The position numbers and the translations under genes were made by a program. The notes under the pieces are model-generated. The model saw only the letters and a program-made list of their open reading frames with translations. It was not told where the DNA came from and made no database searches. Shown piece by piece: positions 10,454 through 42,297 of a stretch of 64,000 bases of DNA. This stretch comes from Thermosipho ferrireducens (lineage in GTDB: Bacteria; Thermotogota; Thermotogae; Thermotogales; Fervidobacteriaceae), in NCBI RefSeq assembly GCF_017358165.1, contig NZ_CP071446.1:62001-126000 (forward strand). Direction: 5' to 3'. Positions within the stretch are counted from its first letter, which is position 1, and each line of letters starts with the position of its first letter.

Positions 10454-11245
10454 CTAAGAATAACTATGTAGCCCAGAAAGTATGTAATTTACTCCGAAAA
10501 ATGTAAAAATCATTAGCATAAACGCAATTATAGCTATAATACTGCTTCGTTTACCCTTCCATTTCAAAAGATATCTTGAATGCAAATAACCGGCATAGAA
10601 AAGCCAGGTGATCAGACTCCAGGTTTCTTTCGGATCCCACGACCAAAATCTTCCCCACGCATACTTAGCCCATATAGCTCCAAAAATTAAAGCTCCCAGC
10701 GTAAAAAATGGAAAACCTATGAGTATGCTTTTGTATGTTAACTCGTCCATTTTCTTTTTGACCTTCTCTTTTTTAGACCATAAATATATCAACGCTGTGG
10801 CAAAAGATACTACGAAAAATACTTCCCCTATAAAAGCAAAAGAAACATGCAAAACAAGCCAGTAACTTTGAAGTGCAGGTATCGGGGGGTTAATTTCTGA
10901 TGAAACCAATGGAGAAGAAGATATGGCAAAGAAAGTTGTTAACACAGCGATTGATATGAAAGCCGTCTGAGAATCTATTTTGTATTTCTTATAAAAATAA
11001 AAAACCACAAAAGCTCCAACCCAGGCAATAAAAGTGACAGCTTCAAAAGTTGATGTGATTGGTATAAATTTCATTTGAATTCCCCGCAAAATCAAACCCG
11101 GTGTTTCTAAAATACCGGCCAAAAGAAGCGTGTACATTGCCAAAGCATGAATTTTCTCCTTTTTTAAAAACAAAGAAATTATTTCCATAAGCAAAGCAAC
11201 CAGATACAGTCCAAAAGCCAGAGAATAAAATATAGTATCTTTCAC
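10454..11245 (-). CDS. ccsA: Cytochrome c maturation protein ResC/CcsA
   Basis: A polytopic membrane protein of 263 residues with about eight helices and the Trp-rich haem-handling motif WGRFWSWDPKETWSL. It is the ResC/CcsA half of cytochrome c biogenesis System II, which exports haem and ligates it to CxxCH motifs outside the membrane. The likely external histidine ligands flank this motif. The GTG start follows AAGGGGGAG. It directly follows resB, as expected for a two-part synthetase, and sits between the cytochromes it would serve and the Etf genes. Confidence 0.92.
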   Translation of the reverse strand: MKDTIFYSLAFGLYLVALLMEIISLFLKKEKIHALAMYTLLLAGILETPGLILRGIQMKFIPITSTFEAVTFIAWVGAFVVFYFYKKYKIDSQTAFISIAVLTTFFAISSSPLVSSEINPPIPALQSYWLVLHVSFAFIGEVFFVVSFATALIYLWSKKEKVKKKMDELTYKSILIGFPFFTLGALIFGAIWAKYAWGRFWSWDPKETWSLITWLFYAGYLHSRYLLKWKGKRSSIIAIIAFMLMIFTFFGVNYILSGLHSYS

Positions 11246-11257
11246 AAAAACTCCCCC

Positions 11258-12430
11258 TTACAATTTTTCTTTTTGATAAAAGTAAACTCTTATTTTGTCC
11301 TTGTCTCTCACCGCATAAACTTTATTATAATCTCTTCTTATTGAAAGCATGGACCCTATTCCTATGAATATTAACGCTATAAACATTAGTAAATCTCCCT
11401 GTGATTTAACATACAAAAGACCTGTTTGTTCATATTTTTTATATCCAGCCAAATACGCTTTTACCGGAAAGTCTTTCGGATCAGTGGGATAATCAAAGTT
11501 TTCGAAAACCCACTGTCTGCCAATTCTTACTCCAAGTAAATTGTAATATTCAACTAAAATAGCAGGATTTACCGGTTCATTACTCATGTTATAAACTTTT
11601 CCATTGGAAACTCTCAAGTGTGGGATAAATCTACTTATTTTTATCCTATAATTTCCCGCTTTAAAACTACTATCATCTGGTCCCTCATAAACATAATCCA
11701 ACCCTTCAAATCTCAACTTAACATTCCAATCAACCTTATGAGACCATTGATATAATTTCCCTTTTTGAATATTCATAGGTTTATTAACCTCTATACTATA
11801 AGTTTTACCATCATATCTTACTATTGAGATCCAATCTTTTGGCATTCCATTTTCGTAAGTATAGAATTTAAAATCTGCTAATTCCAACACTTTTCCATCA
11901 ACGTTAAACTCATCACCAGGACTCAAATAAAATTTCTCCATTTTAGTTGTAAGACCTATAACTAAACCACTAACAATAGCGATTAAAATACCAACATGGA
12001 TTATATCTGGACCTATCTTTCCCAGAAGTGCTTTACTTCCATACATTTCATTTCCTTTAATCTTTGCTTTAAACCCCTGTTCTTTTAGCTTGATTTTTAA
12101 TTCCTTCATACTTCCTTCAAATTCTTCAACACTATCACTTTTAAACCTTTTTCTAAACAACGAAGGGTAAACTTTTACAATTCGAACAAAAGTACATACC
12201 AGGGTATTCAGGAAAAAAAGCGTTAAAAGAAATCCAAAAATTATAGAATTACTATAATGATCAAGCTGCAAAAATAAAATGATATATCCTGTAATACCAT
12301 ATTTTGAAATATAATACTCTGATACATGATATTGTGGGATAAATGTCCCTAAAGCGGCAAAGATTGAAATTGATATCATTAACACTAAAGCAAATTTTAA
12401 TGATTTAAAAAGCTCTATAACCTTTTTCAT
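11258..12430 (-). CDS. resB: Cytochrome c maturation protein ResB/CcsB
   Basis: A 390-residue ResB-family protein. Three N-terminal membrane helices (about 10-30, 60-85 and 135-160) precede a large extracytoplasmic beta-rich domain, and a final membrane helix lies near residues 345-365. The opening KSLKFALVLMISISIFAALGT is typical. With ResC it forms the System II synthetase that delivers haem to apocytochromes. Its start overlaps the end of the tetraheme cytochrome gene by ATGA. I find no separate thiol-disulfide partner (ResA or CcdA) in this window. Confidence 0.9.
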   Translation of the reverse strand: MKKVIELFKSLKFALVLMISISIFAALGTFIPQYHVSEYYISKYGITGYIILFLQLDHYSNSIIFGFLLTLFFLNTLVCTFVRIVKVYPSLFRKRFKSDSVEEFEGSMKELKIKLKEQGFKAKIKGNEMYGSKALLGKIGPDIIHVGILIAIVSGLVIGLTTKMEKFYLSPGDEFNVDGKVLELADFKFYTYENGMPKDWISIVRYDGKTYSIEVNKPMNIQKGKLYQWSHKVDWNVKLRFEGLDYVYEGPDDSSFKAGNYRIKISRFIPHLRVSNGKVYNMSNEPVNPAILVEYYNLLGVRIGRQWVFENFDYPTDPKDFPVKAYLAGYKKYEQTGLLYVKSQGDLLMFIALIFIGIGSMLSIRRDYNKVYAVRDKDKIRVYFYQKEKL

Positions 12431-13038
12431 TTTTTATCCTCCCATTCCAGCACTCCATGAACAAAATTATAGTGACAATCAAAGCAAGAAAGACCCTTTT
12501 CTTTCACTTTTAGTTGTTGATGTATATTTATACCATAAGCCTCTACTTCCATATATGGTATTTCTTCACTTTCCCCATGACATTCCAGACATGTTTCTTC
12601 CGTCAAATTTTTTTCATAGGCTATCTTTTCCCAGTGCTCTTTATAATTGTTATACCAATCTTCTCTGTTTTCAGGATGGTCCTGAGTAAAATAGATCCAC
12701 GCCTCTCTTAATCCTCCTAACTTTGCCCTTGTAAACCCAGCAATATCGGAGGGAATATGGCAATCTGCACAATCAACTCCAGCCTCTCCATGACTGGTTT
12801 CATAAAACTCCTTTTCAAAGTATGGATGGCAGGTCAAACAAAAACTATTAGTTGAAGTTGCCTCTATTGCAATAACCAATCCTATTCCACCCAAAATAAA
12901 TACACCTAACAAGATAATCGCAATCTTTTCAGAAAGATGGACATGTCTTCTCACAAAATCAAAAAACAACAATATTAAATTGAAACCAGCTACTACAACC
13001 TCAAAAAGCAATTTAAAAAAGTCAACAACAACTTTCAC
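12427..13038 (-). CDS. Membrane-anchored tetraheme cytochrome, NapC/NirT/NrfH family
   Basis: A 203-residue quinol-dehydrogenase-type cytochrome. One N-terminal membrane anchor (about 35-58) is followed at once by four haem sites, CLTCH, CADCH, CLECH and CFDCH, in the outward domain. This layout matches NapC/NirT/NrfH proteins, which oxidise menaquinol and pass electrons to periplasmic partners. No dedicated terminal reductase is encoded next to it; the triheme cytochrome at the operon end is the best partner candidate. It ends by overlapping resB. Confidence 0.92.
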   Translation of the reverse strand: MKVVVDFFKLLFEVVVAGFNLILLFFDFVRRHVHLSEKIAIILLGVFILGGIGLVIAIEATSTNSFCLTCHPYFEKEFYETSHGEAGVDCADCHIPSDIAGFTRAKLGGLREAWIYFTQDHPENREDWYNNYKEHWEKIAYEKNLTEETCLECHGESEEIPYMEVEAYGINIHQQLKVKEKGLSCFDCHYNFVHGVLEWEDKK

Positions 13039-14093: not shown

Positions 14094-14402
14094 GAGATTC
14101 CTCGCCTCCACGCTCCTCGGAATGACATATTTCAGGGATGCCAATCCTTACTGTTTTTTGTCATCCTGAGGAACGAAGTGACGAAGGATCTTATTCTTTT
14201 ACCAACCTCACCAACTCTCGCCAATTATAAGATTCCTCACCTTTCGGGCTCGGAATGACACAGAAGGGATCCAACTCTCGCTAACCTCGCCAACCCCGCT
14301 AATTATAAGATTCCTCACCCTTCGGGTTCGGAATGACACAGGAGGGAGCCAACTCTCGCTAACTCTCGCTAACCTTGCTAATTTTGCTAACCTCGCCAAA
14401 TT
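14094..14402. repeat. Composite repeat island 1
   Basis: A GC-richer island of two repeat types. One is a degenerate 9-10-base tandem unit, AACCTCGCC / AACTCTCGCT. The other is a REP-like unit reading GATTCCTCACCCTTCGGG followed by TTCGGAATGACA, present three times, plus one copy of GTCATCCTGAGGAACGAAG. Closely similar islands lie at 19804, 42030 and 48708. Open frames inside it translate to artefacts such as LARLARV. Confidence 0.85.
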
Positions 14403-14531: not shown

Positions 14532-15275
14532 TTGAAAATTAAAATTTTGTGCAATGATTCCTCAAGAAAAAATTTCTTTTATGAACATGGCCTTTCAATT
14601 CTAATTAATGATACAATTCTATTTGATACAGGCCAAACAGACATTTTTATAAAAAATGGCGAGAAATTGCACGTTGACTTTCAAAAAATTGAGAAAATTT
14701 TTATTTCTCATGGTCATTATGATCACGTAGGAGGATTATTTCACCTCCAGAATAAAACAAATGCCACTGTCTTCATCCACAAAAAAGCGTTAATTCCAAA
14801 ATTTAGTGCTAAAAAATTCGCGGGAATTCCTTACGATTGGAATAAAATTCCTTTTAAGGTGGTTTATACTGACAAGGATACAGTTATTGACAATATTCAT
14901 ATCATAAACTCTATTCCAACCGATAAAGAAATAATCAACAAAAAATTTAATGTAAACGGGAAACAGGATCTATTTGACGATGAAATAAACTTGATTATTA
15001 ATAATGTTCTTTTTACTGGCTGTGCTCACAAAGGTATTGAAAATATTTTGAAATATACCATGAAAAATTATAAAATAAAAGCTGTGGTTGGTGGATTTCA
15101 TTTGTCAGGTGCTTCAAGCAAAAGAATAAAAAAGATAATAGCTCTTTTTAAAAGTTACAATCTCGAAATTTTTCCACTGCATTGCACAGGAAGTGATGTA
15201 ATTAAACTTTTAAAAGAGGAATTAAATGAAAAATGTATAGAATTAAAAGCTGGTGATGAATGGAGGTTAATATGA
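14532..15275 (+). CDS. MBL-fold metallohydrolase
   Basis: A 247-residue metallo-beta-lactamase-fold protein. The metal-binding motif ISHGHYDHVGG lies near residue 60, with further ligands expected in GCAHKG, GGFHLSG and PLHCTG. This subgroup is often annotated as dihydropterin-aminobenzene phosphate synthase-like, but the true substrate is generally unknown. The start is TTG 14532 after TTAGGAG. Its ATGA overlap with the PadR gene shows the two are cotranslated. Thiol or persulfide chemistry would fit the redox cluster around it but is not shown. Confidence 0.85.
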   Translation: MKIKILCNDSSRKNFFYEHGLSILINDTILFDTGQTDIFIKNGEKLHVDFQKIEKIFISHGHYDHVGGLFHLQNKTNATVFIHKKALIPKFSAKKFAGIPYDWNKIPFKVVYTDKDTVIDNIHIINSIPTDKEIINKKFNVNGKQDLFDDEINLIINNVLFTGCAHKGIENILKYTMKNYKIKAVVGGFHLSGASSKRIKKIIALFKSYNLEIFPLHCTGSDVIKLLKEELNEKCIELKAGDEWRLI

Positions 15276-15619
15276 GAAGAGGGTCAGGAAGATATAGAAA
15301 AACGTTTATTGAACCATTTATTTTATTGATTATAGCAGAAACTCCTCTTCATGGTTATGAAATTGCAAACAAACTTTCCAGATATGGAATAGAACTTACA
15401 GGATTAGGTCAAATGGGAAATTTATATAGAATTTTATCGAGACTTGAAGATGAAAAATACATCACTTCACAATGGGATTCAAATGCCCGAGGGCCATCTA
15501 AAAAAGTTTATTCTATCACCCCAAAAGGTATTGAACAATTGAAAAACAGCAAGAAAGAATTATTAAAAGTTAAAAAAATCATAGAAGAATTCGTTTCAAA
15601 AGTCTCGAAATTTGAATGA
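15272..15619 (+). CDS. PadR-family transcriptional regulator
   Basis: A 115-residue PadR winged-helix protein. An FIEPFILLIIAETPLHGYEI opening is followed by recognition-helix and wing regions (LYRILSRLEDEKYI, then GPSKKVYSITPKG) and a short C-terminal helix for dimerisation. The start is ATG 15272 behind TGGAGG, overlapping the MBL stop. PadR proteins commonly bind ATGT/ACAT palindromes; a 19-bp palindrome of that kind lies at 17297 and related sites lie just after this gene. It is the obvious candidate regulator of the cluster. Confidence 0.9.
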   Translation: MRRGSGRYRKTFIEPFILLIIAETPLHGYEIANKLSRYGIELTGLGQMGNLYRILSRLEDEKYITSQWDSNARGPSKKVYSITPKGIEQLKNSKKELLKVKKIIEEFVSKVSKFE

Positions 15620-15629
15620 GGATTTTTTC

Positions 15630-15658
15630 TTGACAACTATATGTAAAAATACTATAAT
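15630..15658 (+). promoter_or_regulatory. Consensus promoter of the CoA-disulfide-reductase-like gene
   Basis: TTGACA (15630-15635), a 17-bp spacer and TATAAT (15653-15658) match the consensus. The spacer contains TATATGTAA (15638-15646), the exact half-site of the palindrome at 17297, so a bound repressor would block polymerase. Confidence 0.8.
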
Positions 15659-15691
15659 TAAATTGAAGATATATGCCAATTGAATATAATT
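15638..15691 (+). promoter_or_regulatory. Candidate PadR operators
   Basis: Two related sites. The first, inside the promoter spacer, is TATATGTA followed by an imperfect mirror TACTATA (15638-15656). The second, AGATATATG at 15668 running on to 15691, matches 18 of 24 positions of the operator region at 17295-17318. Binding by the adjacent PadR protein is inferred. Confidence 0.5.
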
Positions 15692-15830
15692 CTCTTTTAA
15701 TTCATTAATTTGTGAAAAAAAATATCTATGTTTTCTGAGAATAGGGTTCAAAGCAATAATAAAAATAAAAATTGATTATTGGCAATTGTGAAATTCTTAT
15801 TTAGCCAAGAACTTGAAGGGAGGGATTAAA

Positions 15831-17174
15831 ATGAATAATATATATGATGTAGTTATTATTGGCGGAAGTGCTGCTGGCATTGTTGCAGCCACGACTGGAA
15901 AATGCTGTTATCCTGACAAAAGTTTTTTAATGATTAGAAAAGAAAAGGATGCGCTGGTTCCGTGTGGTATACCATATGTGTTTGGTTTTTTAGGAACAAC
16001 CGAAAAAAATATAATACCATTAGAACCTATTAAAAAAGCTGGTATTGACTTTCTACAAGATGAAGTAACAAAAATTGACAGGAAAAACAAAATAATCTTC
16101 ACAAAATCTGAAAAGGAATTTCGGTACGAGAAGTTAATATTGGCAACTGGTTCAAAACCTTATGTTCCAGACATAAAAGGTAACGATCTGGAAAATGTAT
16201 TTACTGTTCCAAAAAATAAAGAATATTTAGATAATATGCTTGAAAAACTTAAAAATCTAAACAAAATAGTAGTAATAGGAGCTGGTTTTATAGGTGTTGA
16301 AGTTTCCGAACAATTAGCTCATATAGGTAAAGAAATCACCATAATTGAAATATTACCCCATATTTTAGGAAAAGCTTTTGATAGTAATATAGCCAGCTTA
16401 GCTCAGAAAGAACTTGAAAAATTAGGTATAAAAGTTCTAACAAATACAAAAGTGTTAGAAATAACTGGGAACAAAAAAGTCGATGGTATAGTATTAGAAA
16501 ACGGCAAAATTTTATCAACTGATGCAGTAATCTTTGCTACCGGATATCAACCCAACTCAGAATTAGCAAAAAGTGCGGGATTAGAATTAAATAAATACAA
16601 TGCAATAAGAGTAGATAGTTATATGAGAACAAATGATCCAGATATTTTTGCAATCGGAGATTGTGCCCAGAAGGTTGATTTCATTACACGAAAAAGCGTT
16701 CCAATAATGCTGGCTTCAACTGCAACTTCTGAGGCGAGAATCGCTGGAACAAATTTATATAGACTCTCAACTGTTAGGAGCTTTCTGGGAACAATTGCAA
16801 TATTCTCAACTAAAATAGGAGGTAAAGTCTTTGCCTCTGCTGGTTTGACCGAAGAAGAAGCGCAAAAAAATAATTTTGATGTTAAAACAGGTTATTTCGA
16901 AGGAATTGATAAGCATCCCGGTTCACTTCCCAACGCAAATAAACAAATAGTTAAATTAATTGTTTCAAAAGAATCAGACGTAATAATAGGCGGTGAAATT
17001 GTTGGAGGAGATACTGTTGGAGAACTTATTAACGTTGTCGGAATGGCGATTCAGAATAACGTTAGTATAACAGAATTATTTATCTCTCAAATTGGAACTC
17101 ATCCTCTCCTCACTTCAGCACCAACTGCTTATCCATTAATTAAAGCTGCACAAAACGTTTTTATATCAAAATAG
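15831..17174 (+). CDS. CoA-disulfide reductase / NADH oxidase-like flavoprotein
   Basis: A 447-residue class-III pyridine nucleotide-disulfide oxidoreductase. It has an FAD fold (VVIIGGSAAGIVAA), a single redox cysteine (Cys45 in VPCGIPY), an NAD(P)H fold (VVIGAGFIGVEVSEQLA) and the FAIGDCAQ FAD motif, then the dimerisation domain. The lone active cysteine is typical of CoA-disulfide reductases, NADH oxidases and persulfide reductases (Nsr/Npsr). The start is ATG 15831 after GGGAGGG. It has its own operator-bearing promoter and a terminator after the stop. Which acceptor it uses cannot be told from sequence. Confidence 0.88.
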   Translation: MNNIYDVVIIGGSAAGIVAATTGKCCYPDKSFLMIRKEKDALVPCGIPYVFGFLGTTEKNIIPLEPIKKAGIDFLQDEVTKIDRKNKIIFTKSEKEFRYEKLILATGSKPYVPDIKGNDLENVFTVPKNKEYLDNMLEKLKNLNKIVVIGAGFIGVEVSEQLAHIGKEITIIEILPHILGKAFDSNIASLAQKELEKLGIKVLTNTKVLEITGNKKVDGIVLENGKILSTDAVIFATGYQPNSELAKSAGLELNKYNAIRVDSYMRTNDPDIFAIGDCAQKVDFITRKSVPIMLASTATSEARIAGTNLYRLSTVRSFLGTIAIFSTKIGGKVFASAGLTEEEAQKNNFDVKTGYFEGIDKHPGSLPNANKQIVKLIVSKESDVIIGGEIVGGDTVGELINVVGMAIQNNVSITELFISQIGTHPLLTSAPTAYPLIKAAQNVFISK

Positions 17175-17198
17175 GATTCAAATAGTAAAGTTTCAAAC

Positions 17199-17236
17199 AA
17201 GCCCGCTTTTATAATCTTGTAAGCGGGCTTATTTTT
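17199..17236 (+). terminator. Intrinsic terminator
   Basis: AAGCCCGCTT (17199-17208) pairs with AAGCGGGCTT (17221-17230) around a 12-nt loop and is followed by ATTTTT. It ends the flavoprotein transcript. Confidence 0.85.
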
Positions 17237-17258
17237 AAAGAATAAAAACTAATTTAAT

Positions 17259-17287
17259 TTGACAGTCTTTCAATTGTAGAATATAAT
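17259..17287 (+). promoter_or_regulatory. Consensus promoter of the MinD-type ATPase operon
   Basis: TTGACA (17259-17264), a 17-bp spacer and TATAAT (17282-17287). The predicted start site falls at the edge of the palindrome at 17297. Confidence 0.85.
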
Positions 17288-17296
17288 AAAAACAGA

Positions 17297-17315
17297 TATA
17301 TGTAAATTACATATA
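17297..17315 (+). promoter_or_regulatory. Perfect 19-bp palindromic operator
   Basis: TATATGTAA, a central A, and TTACATATA form perfect 9-bp arms containing the ATGT...ACAT core known from PadR operators. It covers the transcription start and touches the AGGAGG ribosome site (17315-17320). It is a likely site for the PadR protein encoded at 15272. Confidence 0.75.
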
Positions 17316-17327
17316 GGAGGTTTGTAC

Positions 17328-18176
17328 GTGAAGATAGCGATTTTAAGCGGAAAAGGAGGCACAGGCAAAACTACTGTTTCAACAAATTTCGCCTGGGTTC
17401 TATCTAAAACAATTTCTGTTCAATTACTTGATGCTGATGTTGAAGAACCAAATGACCATATCTTCTTCAACGTATCATTTGATTATGAAGAAAATGTAGA
17501 ACTCCTACTTCCATTAGTTAACAATGAAATATGTATAAAATGTGGAAAATGTTCAAACAACTGTCAATTTGGTGCCATCTCAGTCTTCAACTCTGGAACT
17601 CTTGTATTTGAAAATTTATGCCACGGATGCGGTGTATGTGAAATGGTTTGTCCTGTTAACGCGATCACTGAAAGACCAAAAAATATAGGTAAAGTAATGA
17701 TTGGTACCATAAATAAAAACCTTAAATTTGGAATGGGAATCTTAAAGATCGGTGAACCTTCAGGGGTAAAGATCATCAGACAACTCAAAAAACATATCGA
17801 CAATAAAGTTGAAGTCGTTATTATTGATTCTCAACCAGGGACTTCCTGTCCTGTCGTAGAAACGCTGAGAAATGTTGATTTCGCAATTCTCGTCACCGAA
17901 CCAACCACTTTTGGTCTACATGATTTATCTTTAGCTGTAGAACTTATTAAAGATATGAAAATCCCTTCTGGAATTATTATCAACAGAGACAATTTCAGAA
18001 CAAACATCATAGATAACTTTGCAAAAAAAGAAAAAATACCTATTTTAATGAAGATACCTTTTAAAAAGCAAATTGCAAGAATCTATTCTGAAGGAAATTT
18101 ATTCTCAGAGTTTTTACCAGAATTCCAGGAAAAATTCCTTTCGGTTTATGAAACCATAAAGGAGTTGATTAAATGA
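17328..18176 (+). CDS. MinD/ParA-type ATPase with inserted ferredoxin domain (first copy)
   Basis: A 282-residue P-loop ATPase of the MinD superfamily. The deviant Walker A GKGGTGKTT is near the N-terminus, and two [4Fe-4S] motifs, CIKCGKCSNNC and CHGCGVCEMVC, are inserted at about residues 65-105; the second half of the ATPase fold follows. Pairs of such proteins beside a NifX-like protein make up the ORP system of Desulfovibrio and its relatives. The GTG at 17328, seven bases after AGGAGG, is the better start; a TTG two codons earlier is too close to that site. ATGA overlap couples it to the next copy. Confidence 0.9.
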   Translation: MKIAILSGKGGTGKTTVSTNFAWVLSKTISVQLLDADVEEPNDHIFFNVSFDYEENVELLLPLVNNEICIKCGKCSNNCQFGAISVFNSGTLVFENLCHGCGVCEMVCPVNAITERPKNIGKVMIGTINKNLKFGMGILKIGEPSGVKIIRQLKKHIDNKVEVVIIDSQPGTSCPVVETLRNVDFAILVTEPTTFGLHDLSLAVELIKDMKIPSGIIINRDNFRTNIIDNFAKKEKIPILMKIPFKKQIARIYSEGNLFSEFLPEFQEKFLSVYETIKELIK

Positions 18177-19051
18177 AACAAATAGCAATAGTCAGTGGAA
18201 AAGGCGGAACAGGCAAAACCACCCTGAGTTCTTCTCTTGGAATCCTATTTGAAAATTCAATTTTAGCCGATTGCGATGTTGATGCGGCTAATCTAAATCT
18301 TATGTTCAATTCAAAAGTGATTGAAAAACATGAATATTATGGAGGTAAAAAAGCAATAATTGTTCCTGAAAAGTGTGATGGATGTGGAATATGTAAAAAA
18401 GTGTGTAGATTTGAGGCTATTATAACTGTTAGCAATATCTATAAAGTTGATCAATATGCCTGTGAAGGTTGTAATGCATGTGTCATTTCCTGTCCTCAAA
18501 GGGCTATCAAATTAGTTGAATCATTATCGGGTGAATTTTATTATTCAGTTTCTGAAAACAAAAATATTATACATGCAAATCTTAATCCCGGTGAAGAAAC
18601 ATCTGGTGGACTTGTTGCTGAAGTTAGAAAACTTTCAATTGAAAAGGGGAAAAATTTAAAAAAAGAAATAATATTGATCGATGGAGCACCAGGCGTTGGA
18701 TGTCCAGCTACATCGTCAATTGCAGCTACTTATTTTGTAATTATTGTTACTGAACCTACTTCTTCAGGAATACACGATTTAAAAAGAATTATTGATACTG
18801 TTAACCATTTCAAGAGAAATTTTGCAATAGTGATAAATAAATACGATATTAACGAAGAAATAACCGGTAAAATTGAAGACTTTTGTAAAGATGAAAAAAT
18901 CGAAATACTTGGAAAAATTCCTTTTGATGAAACAGTAGAAAAAGCAATTCTTGAAACCAGACCCGTTGTTACGTATGAAAATAGTAAAGCGGCAAGAGCA
19001 ATAATAGAGATTTATAAAAAACTATTAAAAGTCATTAAAAAGGAGGTGTAA
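18173..19051 (+). CDS. MinD/ParA-type ATPase with inserted ferredoxin domain (second copy)
   Basis: A 292-residue paralogue of the preceding gene with the same plan. Walker A GKGGTGKTT lies at about residues 9-17, ferredoxin motifs CDGCGICKKVC and CEGCNACVISC at about 62-105, then GAPGVGCPA and TEPTSSGIHDL in the ATPase core. The two proteins probably form a heterodimer that inserts or carries a metal-sulfur cluster, with the NifX-like product as scaffold. This is inferred from ORP/Nbp35-like families. Only four bases separate its stop from the next gene. Confidence 0.9.
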   Translation: MKQIAIVSGKGGTGKTTLSSSLGILFENSILADCDVDAANLNLMFNSKVIEKHEYYGGKKAIIVPEKCDGCGICKKVCRFEAIITVSNIYKVDQYACEGCNACVISCPQRAIKLVESLSGEFYYSVSENKNIIHANLNPGEETSGGLVAEVRKLSIEKGKNLKKEIILIDGAPGVGCPATSSIAATYFVIIVTEPTSSGIHDLKRIIDTVNHFKRNFAIVINKYDINEEITGKIEDFCKDEKIEILGKIPFDETVEKAILETRPVVTYENSKAARAIIEIYKKLLKVIKKEV

Positions 19052-19054
19052 ATT

Positions 19055-19399
19055 ATGAAAATAGCGATTCCATCTGAGGGTAAAACTCTTGATTCCATGA
19101 TAAACGATAGATACGCAAGAGCTGAGTACATTATTATCTATGATATTGATAGAGAAGAAATTATCGAAGTTATTGAAAATGATTCCTCAGAGGCTCATGG
19201 TAAAGGCTCAAAAGTTTCCCAATTGCTTACAAACAAGGGAGTTAAAATATTAATAACTCAAAATGTCGGAAAAAACGCACTCGAAGTTCTCAAAGCAGCA
19301 AATATAGAAGTTTACTTATCAAAAAAAGATACTATAAAAAATGCTATTCAAAAACTCAAAGACGGTACCCTTGAAAAAATAGAAAATCCGACAAACTAA
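19055..19399 (+). CDS. NifX/NifB-fold (dinitrogenase Fe-Mo cofactor-like) protein
   Basis: A 114-residue protein of the Fe-Mo-cofactor-binding fold (PF02579 type). It opens with MKIAIPSEGKTLDSMINDRYA and continues with YIIIYDIDREEI and LLTNKGVKILITQNVGKNA, where the cofactor pocket normally lies. Relatives include NifX, MTH1175 and the molybdenum-copper orange protein (ORP) of Desulfovibrio. No nitrogenase genes are present, so nitrogen fixation is not implied. AAGGAGGTG precedes the ATG, and the gene is cotranscribed with the two ATPases. Confidence 0.88.
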   Translation: MKIAIPSEGKTLDSMINDRYARAEYIIIYDIDREEIIEVIENDSSEAHGKGSKVSQLLTNKGVKILITQNVGKNALEVLKAANIEVYLSKKDTIKNAIQKLKDGTLEKIENPTN

Positions 19400-19549
19400 G
19401 ACTAAATAAAGTTAATTATTACAAGAACATCAAAAGAACAAAAATCAGCCAATAGTATTTTAGCTATTCTAAAATTTATGTGGCATACGGATTCAATGAA
19501 ATTGAACTTATAAAAACATTTTCAAATGAAAAATCGCGGAGGTAATACT

Positions 19550-19783
19550 ATGCCATGGATTAAAAAAGAAAATTGTATAAAATGCCAGATTTGTGTAAAT
19601 GTTTGTTCTGTCGAAAATGCAATATACTTTGAAGAAGATGGCTATCCATTTATTAATAATAATATTTGTACAAGATGTGGGATATGTATGAGAAAATGTC
19701 CGCAAAATGCTATTCGCCCTAACTATGAAAACCCTTTACTCAGGGGTATTGGCAGAGGAATAAGACAACAGTTTAAGAAATGA
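19550..19783 (+). CDS. Two-cluster [4Fe-4S] ferredoxin
   Basis: A 77-residue ferredoxin with two CxxCxxCxxxC motifs, CIKCQICVNVC and CTRCGICMRKC, and a basic Arg/Gly tail. The start is ATG 19550 eight bases after GGAGG; an ATG eight codons earlier lacks a ribosome site. It lies 150 bases after the NifX-like gene without an obvious terminator between, and so may be the electron donor of that system. A repeat island begins 20 bases after the stop. Confidence 0.9.
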   Translation: MPWIKKENCIKCQICVNVCSVENAIYFEEDGYPFINNNICTRCGICMRKCPQNAIRPNYENPLLRGIGRGIRQQFKK

Positions 19784-19803: not shown

Positions 19804-19933
19804 ACTAACCTTGCTAATCTTGCTAACTCTCGCTAACCTCGCCAAAATAAGATTCCTCACCCTTCGGGTTCGGAATGACACAGAAGGGAGCCAACTCTCG
19901 CTAACTCTCGCCAATCTTGCCGACCTTGCCAAA
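19804..19933. repeat. Composite repeat island 2
   Basis: The shortest copy of the composite repeat. Degenerate AACCTCGCC-type units flank one REP-like unit (GATTCCTCACCCTTCGGG, then TTCGGAATGACACAGAAGG). The sequence is nearly identical to part of the island at 14094, although about 5.5 kb apart. Confidence 0.85.
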
Positions 19934-20001: not shown

Positions 20002-20553
20002 GTGACTGGAAAAATTACAGTAATAACCGGACCCATGTATTCTGGAAAAACGACAGAACTTTTATCGTTTGTTGAAATCTATAATATTGGAAAGAAAAAA
20101 ACACTGGTTTTCAAACCTGCTGTTGACAATCGATATGGTCATGACATTGTTTCGACTCATACTGGTTTTAGCGTAAAAGCTGAAATAATAGCAAGAGCTT
20201 CAGAAATAATGAAAAAAATAACACCAGAATTTGATGCAATTTTCATTGATGAGGTACAATTTCTTGATACAGAGTTGGTTGAAATTGCTAAAAAACTTGC
20301 TTTTCAAGGAATAGATGTTTACTGCGCTGGTCTTGATATGTCTTATCTTGAAAAACCATTTGAAACTACAGCTCGACTCTTAGCAATAGCAGATGTTGTT
20401 ATAAAAAAGAAAGCAGTTTGCGAAAAATGCGGAGAACATAGGGCAACTTATTCTTACAAAATCGTTCCAGACGGCGGGGAGATTGATGTTGGAGGTAAAG
20501 ATAAATACATCGCAATTTGCCGAGACTGTTTGAAACAACTTAAATCTACATAA
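20002..20553 (+). CDS. tdk: Thymidine kinase
   Basis: A 183-residue type II thymidine kinase. The P-loop GPMYSGKT lies near residue 10, DEVQFLD is the Walker B/catalytic region, and a C-terminal zinc knuckle is made of CEKCGEH and CRDC. It phosphorylates thymidine for salvage. The GTG start at 20002 follows an AAAAGGGGG run. It is followed after 19 bases by the secreted nucleotidase, which would release nucleosides outside the cell, so the pair forms a small salvage unit. Confidence 0.95.
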   Translation: MTGKITVITGPMYSGKTTELLSFVEIYNIGKKKTLVFKPAVDNRYGHDIVSTHTGFSVKAEIIARASEIMKKITPEFDAIFIDEVQFLDTELVEIAKKLAFQGIDVYCAGLDMSYLEKPFETTARLLAIADVVIKKKAVCEKCGEHRATYSYKIVPDGGEIDVGGKDKYIAICRDCLKQLKST

Positions 20554-23096: not shown

Positions 23097-23714
23097 TTAA
23101 ATTTTACGTTCCACTTGAAACACAAGGGATTTAAATGTAAGAGTAATGTCCACTTCCTCAACCAACAAATGAGTTCTCAATTTAATAGGTGCAAAGTTTA
23201 CCACACCTTTTATCCCAAGTTGCTCAAGTTGTTCAACAACATACTGAGCAGCTGTTTCTGGAACAGCTATTACAGCTATCTCTACAATATTCTTTTTAAC
23301 AAATTCTTTTAGTTCAGAAATATGCCTGACTATTAAATTACCTATTTTTCTTCCAACTTTAGCCCGATCAGCATCGAAAATTCCTATTATATTAAATTTT
23401 TCTTTTTTCAATCCTTCATAATTTACCAGTGCACTTCCTATGTTACCTGCACCTATAACAATAACGTTCCAATACTTATCAACCCCTATAATACTCTCGA
23501 GTTTTTCCATAAGCATAGCCACATTATACCCAACTCCACGTTTTCCAAATTCCCCAAAATACGACAAATCTTTTCTAACTTGACTTGATTTGATACCCAA
23601 CCTTTCAGCTATATCTCTAGATGCTACATAATCCACCCCTTCTTCGTACAATTTAGATAGACAACGATAATAAAGCCCTAACCTTCTGATAACCGGTCTT
23701 GGAATTTTGTCCAT
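23097..23714 (-). CDS. rex: Redox-sensing transcriptional repressor Rex
   Basis: A 205-residue Rex protein. The N-terminal winged helix (IPRPVIRRLGLYYR, then SQVRKDLSYFGEFGKRGVGY) is followed by an NAD(H)-binding Rossmann domain with GAGNIGSAL and a domain-swapped C-terminal helix. It represses fermentation and respiration genes when NADH is low. I take ATG 23714 as the start, since longer frames run into the Rex operator and promoter. A hairpin sits between the ribosome site and this ATG. Confidence 0.93.
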   Translation of the reverse strand: MDKIPRPVIRRLGLYYRCLSKLYEEGVDYVASRDIAERLGIKSSQVRKDLSYFGEFGKRGVGYNVAMLMEKLESIIGVDKYWNVIVIGAGNIGSALVNYEGLKKEKFNIIGIFDADRAKVGRKIGNLIVRHISELKEFVKKNIVEIAVIAVPETAAQYVVEQLEQLGIKGVVNFAPIKLRTHLLVEEVDITLTFKSLVFQVERKI

Positions 23715-23747
23715 ATCTTCCGGTACGCTTTCGCGTACTCTCCTCCC
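23715..23747 (-). promoter_or_regulatory. rex leader: hairpin between ribosome site and start codon
   Basis: On the minus strand GGGAGGAGA (23739-23747) is followed by GTACGC-GAAA-GCGTAC (23723-23738), a perfect 6-bp stem capped by a GNRA loop, then eight bases and ATG. With the stem folded, the ribosome site lies at an effective 8-base distance; unfolded it is 24 bases away. Confidence 0.6.
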
Positions 23748-23760
23748 TTCCCTTTGTTTA

Positions 23761-23778
23761 TTGTGATGTTGTTCACAA
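23761..23778 (-). promoter_or_regulatory. Rex operator
   Basis: TTGTGATGTTGTTCACAA is a perfect 6-bp inverted repeat with a 6-bp spacer, the classic Rex-box form. It lies next to a TATAAT (minus, 23780-23785) ahead of rex, implying autoregulation. Confidence 0.85.
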
Positions 23779-23961
23779 ATATTATACAACAATTTTTGTC
23801 AACTTTTACCATTCAATTTATAAAAAATTTCGCACAGTAAATAAGTTTTCTTAAAGGTATTAATCATAAAAATAGTGATTTGAATTTTTATTTTTACAAA
23901 AATAATTCAATTTTACCTTTCTCATGAAATATTTTCGCGCCTCTCGAAACAAAATCGTAAT

Positions 23962-42029: not shown

Positions 42030-42297
42030 CTCTCACCAATCTTGCCAACTTCGCTAACCTCGCCAACTCTCGCCAATCTCGCCAGTTATAAGATTCCTCG
42101 CCTGCCTGCTCCTCGGAATGACACAGGTGGAAGGTCAACCTCGCTAAATTCAAGATTCCTCACCCTTCGGGTTCGGAATGACAAAAAAGGGGGCATCATG
42201 AGGAATGCAATGACAAGAGGGATGTCATCCTGAGGAATGAAGTGACGAAGGATCTTATTTTACTAATCTCGCTAACCTCGCCAACATTCGCTAATTA
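42030..42297. repeat. Composite repeat island 3
   Basis: Tandem AACCTCGCC-type units at both ends enclose two REP-like units ending in CGGAATGACA and one GTCATCCTGAGGAATGAAG unit. It fills most of the gap between ldh and tRNA-Val. Confidence 0.85.

Follow-up and report, generated by a model that had tools for sequence, protein, structure and literature searches.

A conserved promoter palindrome suggests PadR control of a predicted metal-sulfur locus in Thermosipho ferrireducens

What joins a pair of ferredoxin-containing ATPases and a NifX-domain protein to a PadR regulator, a flavoenzyme and a hydrolase of the MBL fold? The question arises from a stretch of 64,000 nt of Thermosipho ferrireducens (the window, to which all window coordinates refer), part of a complete chromosome of 1.98 Mb. 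All features described lie on the forward strand. A sequence-only reading had placed seven open reading frames here and assigned them to one regulon around a metal-sulfur cluster system like the orange-protein (ORP) complex of Desulfovibrio. The coordinates of the seven are borne out by the open reading frame listing, and Pfam confirms the families: MBL, PadR, Pyr_redox_2 with a dimerisation domain (the CoA-disulfide-reductase-like gene, CDR), two P-loop ATPases (MinD-Fd1 and MinD-Fd2), Nitro_FeMo-Co (NifX) and a 2[4Fe-4S] ferredoxin. We consider it reasonably likely, from the sequences compared, that the locus is a PadR-controlled unit for metal-sulfur handling. A shared operator joins the MinD-Fd1/MinD-Fd2/NifX/ferredoxin operon to CDR in this genome, and to MBL, Gly/Arg-rich DUF5320, OYE and PadR genes elsewhere in the heat-loving Thermotogales. 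The conserved unit is real and the regulon is convincing, and both are built of known families.

The operator palindrome and its distribution

The palindrome is the strongest part of the analysis. An exact TATATG-N7-CATATA (operator 1, TATATGTAAATTACATATA, 17297-17315) lies between the -10 box and the ribosome-binding site of the MinD-Fd operon. It is the single exact copy in the genome, and a first-order Markov sequence of 20 Mb yielded none. The site at the CDR promoter (operator 2, TATATGCCAATTGAATATA, 15670-15688) has one mismatch and, at 15.6 bits, is the second-best position weight matrix match in the 64 kb. A perfect TTGACA-17-TATAAT promoter (17259-17287 for the MinD-Fd operon, 15630-15658 for CDR) precedes each operator, its -10 box lying about 10 nt upstream, and the former promoter is the same in four relatives (G029, G027, G023 and G028). 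The similar palindromes that had been noted at two promoters are thus confirmed, one exact and one nearly so. A terminator-like hairpin (AAGCCCGCTT...AAGCGGGCTT, then T-rich; 17199-17240) follows CDR, which is therefore probably not transcribed together with MinD-Fd1. We found no sign of a large regulon in this genome: ATATG-N7-CATAT with one mismatch occurs 130 times, versus 136 in a reversed control, and the other exact loose matches have no regulon gene beside them.

Among approximately 20 other Thermotogales genomes the palindrome recurs at the promoters of MinD-ferredoxin, DUF5320-MBL, DUF5320-PadR, OYE-flavoenzyme and CDR genes, even where these targets are unlinked. Its repeated association with one set of gene families throughout the order supports the claim of one regulon. 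The MinD-Fd promoter operator is present in 14 other genomes (exact in 10, one mismatch in 4), and in the ten relatives with the exact site MinD-Fd1 is only 55-87% identical. Where a DUF5320 gene precedes the MinD-Fd genes (G024, G025, G040), the operator stands before DUF5320. T. maritima-like genomes have the exact operator before two DUF5320 genes, followed by a TM1679-type MBL where MBL is intact; three of them (G036, G037, G039) have no MinD-Fd pair. The exact site also precedes an OYE-type FMN/FAD enzyme gene in G023, G028 and G029 and a CDR homologue in G027. Sites comparable to that of the host, and in the same place, are found at the CDR promoter in G029, G023 and G026. DUF5320-PadR operons carry it exactly in G034 and with one mismatch in G003 and G005. 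In the genomes listed the operator is always close to or over a -35/-10, either over the -10 box or just 3' of it, which is the expected placement for a repressor. A hairpin acting at the ribosome site was rejected as an explanation, because the position of the palindrome relative to that site varies between genomes, and because in several genomes it overlaps the -10 box or stands in front of a DUF5320 gene, at a distance of hundreds of bases upstream from MinD-Fd1.

Gene order is also conserved in related genomes, in line with what the sequence-only reading required of its neighbours. Of 45 genomes of the order (Thermotogales), 17 encode the MinD-Fd1/MinD-Fd2 pair. The full set MBL-PadR-CDR-MinD1-MinD2-NifX-NifX2-ferredoxin is present in G029, with portions in G023, G027 and G028. 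The MBL-PadR pair is kept in G029, G030, G028, G024, G025 and G026, and in the last three is away from the MinD-Fd operon. Beyond the Thermotogales, 71 of 80 fetched stretches with the ATPase pair have a NifX-domain gene and 14 of 80 have an MBL of the TM1679-type family (no background rate was computed for either count); the latter suggests that the MBL association is old. The shared-operator regulon is seen only in Thermotogales. A PadR gene is nearby in 4 of the 80 distant loci, a count not compared with a background rate and not used as evidence. One Chloroflexota locus (L098:2192-4417) encodes a PadR with a long Gly/Arg-rich start, a ferredoxin, DUF5320 and NifX just before MinD-Fd1, and is a PadR association outside Thermotogales.

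PadR as the candidate reader of the operator

The PadR gene (15260-15619, with ATG at 15260 or 15272) overlaps by 16 nt the MBL gene upstream (14532-15275, TTG start). It encodes a PF03551 winged-helix domain (69 bits versus a cut-off of 27) and is an orthologue of TM0937 (PDB 2esh, E 1.2e-24). With orthologues defined by E < 1e-13 and at least 38% identity, PadR is present in 26 of the 45 genomes. An exact operator at a promoter is present in 18 of the 26 versus 1 of the 19 that have no orthologue (Fisher p 1.3e-5, uncorrected for phylogeny). Because the operator largely co-occurs with PadR orthologues, the PadR encoded at the locus is probably, judging by comparative sequence evidence, the regulator that reads it. 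The host recognition helix is GxGxMGxxYR, and orthologues keep MGxxYR over three families at 40-46% overall identity. The best sites here are ATGT-N5-ACAT (7 nt between the TATATG arms). They agree in letters, though not in spacing, with known PadR operators, in which inverted ATGT and ACAT are separated by 8-10 nt (PadR/LmrR; PMC3506622).

We doubt that the operator belongs to a different regulator. Such an assignment would account for the exact site in G001 and the one-mismatch site in G032, in neither of which a PadR orthologue was found, and for a spacing unlike that of classic PadR sites. These two genomes are, however, drafts (71% and 92% complete), and operator-DUF5320-PadR operons exist in two other families. 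It is likewise improbable that the regulon is one of detoxification, in which PadR would sense an electrophile or aromatic compound, OYE, CDR and MBL would remove it, and the Fe-S genes would be a repair branch. Known PadR proteins do govern phenolic-acid and drug responses (PMC3506622), and OYE, CDR and MBL are common detoxification families that share the operator, but its most constant target is the MinD-Fd/DUF5320 group, with OYE in only 6 of 45 genomes.

The host PadR has zero cysteines. The suggestion that the system senses thiol state is therefore unsupported as it was worded: sensing through PadR's own thiols is excluded, and any sulfur sensing must use a bound ligand.

Regulation of NifX/DUF5320 genes by a PadR protein seems to be a repeated feature of the host's family, as indicated by a second PadR (PadR2) whose operons have their own palindrome. 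PadR2 has a different recognition helix (QHDPGVIYR) and a Gly/Arg-rich start, and is encoded in a PadR2-DUF5320-DUF5320-NifX (HFGHA-type) operon (L049:9489-10810, host C1:544489-545810) preceded by the palindrome CACTATTGA-N7-TCAATAGTG. Close versions of it stand in front of a DUF5320 pair in G030 and of the PadR2 genes of G015 and G022, which have a His-rich NifX gene as neighbour. A Petrotoga locus (L155) in which PadR adjoins MinD-Fd was set aside as a further case, as its PadR has a different recognition helix and the locus has no TATATG-N7-CATATA.

The cluster machinery and its predicted function

MinD-Fd1 (17322-18176), a COG1149-type ATPase with an inserted 2[4Fe-4S] ferredoxin, overlaps by 4 nt the similarly built MinD-Fd2 (18173-19051). 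Pfam and alignments place two inserted 4Fe-4S motifs in each, and all 16 ferredoxin cysteines (8 per ATPase) are invariant throughout the aligned full-length sequences, both archaeal and bacterial. The switch-II cysteines (Cys176 of MinD-Fd1 and Cys177 of MinD-Fd2) are also invariant across archaeal and bacterial relatives. They are 7 residues after the Walker B aspartate, the spacing of the bridging-cluster cysteine in NifH, and an hhalign comparison puts Cys176 opposite the cluster cysteine of NifH (probability 97%, E 2e-11). This is the counterpart of NifH Cys132, and it is invariant in the aligned MinD-Fd ATPases. The predicted structures (mean pLDDT 96 and 95) match ApbC, a HypB-type ATPase, BchL, MinD and NifH at Z 22-25. 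Nitrogenase had been reported as absent, and indeed PF00142 gives only ParA-grade matches in the host genome.

The NifX-domain protein (19055-19399; PF02579, 77 bits; 114 aa) has no cysteine, and NDRYARAEY replaces the HFG motif. It is an orthologue of TM1290 (PDB 1rdu), its nearest solved relative, followed by MTH1175 (1eo1) and ORP (2wfb, E 6.5e-12); the G035 protein aligns with 1rdu over all 116 residues (E 2.8e-71). In relatives, a second NifX gene of the HFGHS type (107 aa) lies intact between NifX and ferredoxin. The sequence-only reading missed its decayed counterpart, a frame-broken remnant that fills 19400-19525 (local alignment score 91, maximum 57.5 in 200 shuffles). The ferredoxin (19526-19783, with ATG 19550 the likely start) has a short tail, RGIGRGIR, in place of the long Gly/Arg-rich tail of its relatives.

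These tails bear on the possibility, in our judgement rather unlikely, that the locus serves an iron-sulfide store, with NifX, Gly/Arg-rich DUF5320 and ferredoxin tails binding anionic thioferrate like IssA and the MinD-Fd pair mobilising it. IssA of Pyrococcus furiosus (179 aa) is a NifX-domain protein with a 70-residue cationic Gly/aromatic-rich tail that binds thioferrate (PMC5524996). Proteins of the DUF5320 family with GRGFGRGW repeats belong to the operator regulon in other genomes, and relatives' ferredoxins are tailed as above. The host NifX, however, is tailless, its ferredoxin tail is short, and its DUF5320 genes are in a separate cluster under the other PadR. In a further reading, to which we give very little credence, a PadR protein with a Gly/Arg-rich start, similar to the tails of DUF5320 and IssA, would directly sense a soluble metal-sulfide polymer or cluster. 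It would control an ATP-driven MinD-ferredoxin machine that loads or unloads this material on NifX and DUF5320 proteins; anaerobes would have a regulon dedicated to the storage of metal sulfide, and a single genome would hold two PadR branches in parallel.

CDR (15831-17174, from ATG 15831 in a frame open from 15813) is an FAD/NAD(P)H-disulfide reductase; among solved structures it comes nearest to NADH oxidases and to reductases of CoA-disulfide and CoA-persulfide. It has FAD/NAD and dimerisation domains and a redox cysteine near position 43 in VPCGIPY, as in the CoADR/Nox/Npr group. The description of a single-cysteine flavoprotein holds for this motif position, and fails for the protein as a whole, which has four cysteines. 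The substrate is not assignable, given a score of 271 bits against the TIGR03385 equivalog (cut-off 578.8). MBL is an orthologue of TM1679 (PDB 3h3e), with which it aligns at E 1.3e-46 over 241 of 247 aa, and has the HxHxDH metal motif (SHGHYDHVGG).

We predict the following for the PadR-controlled unit. PadR would act as a repressor on the operator, blocking RNA polymerase, and a ligand, perhaps a sulfur or metal-sulfide species, would release it. MinD-Fd1 and MinD-Fd2 may form a NifH-like heterodimer, in which the inserted ferredoxin clusters, together with the separate ferredoxin, could supply low-potential electrons to a site at the switch-II cysteines. Driven by ATP, the pair would assemble or reduce a metal-sulfur cluster (Fe-S in the simplest case) or transfer it onto NifX. 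The role of CDR may be the reduction of CoA-disulfide, persulfide or polysulfide, by which sulfane sulfur would be managed.

Several observations weigh against this scheme. A number of genomes have a PadR orthologue and no exact operator, and at 5 nt the half-sites are more closely spaced than in PadR/LmrR operators, for which 8-10 nt is reported. The host MBL-PadR genes have no operator, hence no autoregulation via a TATATG-N7-CATATA site. Distant CDR homologues (Thermotogaceae, about 49% identity) were rejected as regulon members since they have no operator site. No counterpart of NifH Cys97, the other cluster ligand, was found in the aligned MinD-Fd ATPases. Structures of MinD and ParA give scores as good as those for NifH; the fold matches of the predicted models give superfamily, not function.

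The regulon would join three solved but unexplained structural-genomics orphans of T. maritima: TM0937 (PadR), TM1290 (NifX) and TM1679 (MBL). As these have already been crystallised or measured by nuclear magnetic resonance, the prediction of a joint function is testable with purified proteins. Clusters of MinD-ferredoxin, NifX and DUF5320 genes are common in strict anaerobes and archaea, with a function assigned only for the Desulfovibrio ORP complex. The conserved operator names a candidate repressor and defines a co-regulated gene set, and the idea of a NifH-like bridging cluster can be put to a direct test through the switch-II cysteine that is invariant in both ATPases. No description of joint control was found in the literature; the RegPrecise Thermotogales collection (33 TF regulogs) was outside the search, so that an earlier in silico prediction is possible.

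Other features surround the cluster. A dispersed repeat of about 86 nt flanks the cassette (14227-14390 and 19847-19932, 91% identical across it), and its core has more copies at 42155, 48844 and 49020; it is possibly a mobile or recombination-prone element. A thymidine kinase gene (20002-20553) lies directly 3' of the cluster. In Thermosipho-like relatives (L265, L268-L270, L273) PadR2 is immediately upstream of this gene, which implies that the neighbourhood is rearranged in the host genome. A multihaem NrfH-like c-type cytochrome gene (12427-13038) adjoins ResB-/CcsA-like cytochrome c assembly genes (10454-12430); these are unexpected for Thermotogales and may fit metal or sulfur respiration. 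A Rex-like redox repressor gene (23097-23792, family assigned by eye from the sequence) is also near the cluster.

Comparison with known systems

The ORP complex of Desulfovibrio consists of Orp3/Orp4/Orp5/Orp8/Orp9 (PMC6345978). The locus resembles it in encoding a pair of ferredoxin-containing MinD-type ATPases (Orp3/Orp4) with a one-domain NifX protein (Orp8/ORP), the part of the earlier ORP assignment that stands; the MrpORP protein and sigma-54 control are absent, and nothing favours Mo-Cu over Fe-S. A true ORP system, with a Mo-Cu-S cluster on NifX and the ATPase pair acting as Orp3/Orp4 at the cell pole or in division, is thus very unlikely, notwithstanding the shared pair and the match of NifX to 2wfb. 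Orp9/MrpORP (an Mrp ATPase fused to a Di-Nase domain) has no match over the cut-off in the genome: the best Mrp match to NF041136 (327 versus 450 bits) is confined to the ATPase part, and its gene lies away from the cluster. No sigma-54 promoter was found at either promoter, both being of the sigma-70 type with a PadR-type operator. CDR and MBL are neighbours that set the locus apart, and NifX has closer relatives than ORP in TM1290 and MTH1175, of which MTH1175 is assigned to the IssA clade (PMC5524996). The ATPase pair is ORP-like, but the unit as a whole should not be classed as ORP.

The likeness to IssA is in the NifX domain and in the Gly/Arg/aromatic-rich sequences of regulon partners (DUF5320, ferredoxin tails); the host NifX differs in having no cationic tail. 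NifH/BchL iron proteins share with the ATPases a deviant Walker A, the cysteine 7 residues after the Walker B aspartate and the fold (Z 22-24), whereas the host proteins have an inserted ferredoxin and have neither the Cys97 counterpart nor a nitrogenase-like partner. The COG1149/COG1433/DUF5320 clusters of anaerobic bacteria and archaea have the same MinD-Fd1-MinD-Fd2-NifX arrangement, but PadR is rarely nearby in the distant loci (the 4 of 80 given above). CoA-disulfide and CoA-persulfide reductases (PDB 3cgb, 5l1n, 8a56) align with CDR over the full length and share the redox cysteine motif. With PadR/LmrR (PMC3506622) and TM0937 (2esh) the regulator shares the winged helix and an ATGT/ACAT inverted repeat at promoters, while the half-site spacing differs (5 nt, not 8-10) and its predicted targets are metal-sulfur genes rather than genes for drugs or phenolic acids.

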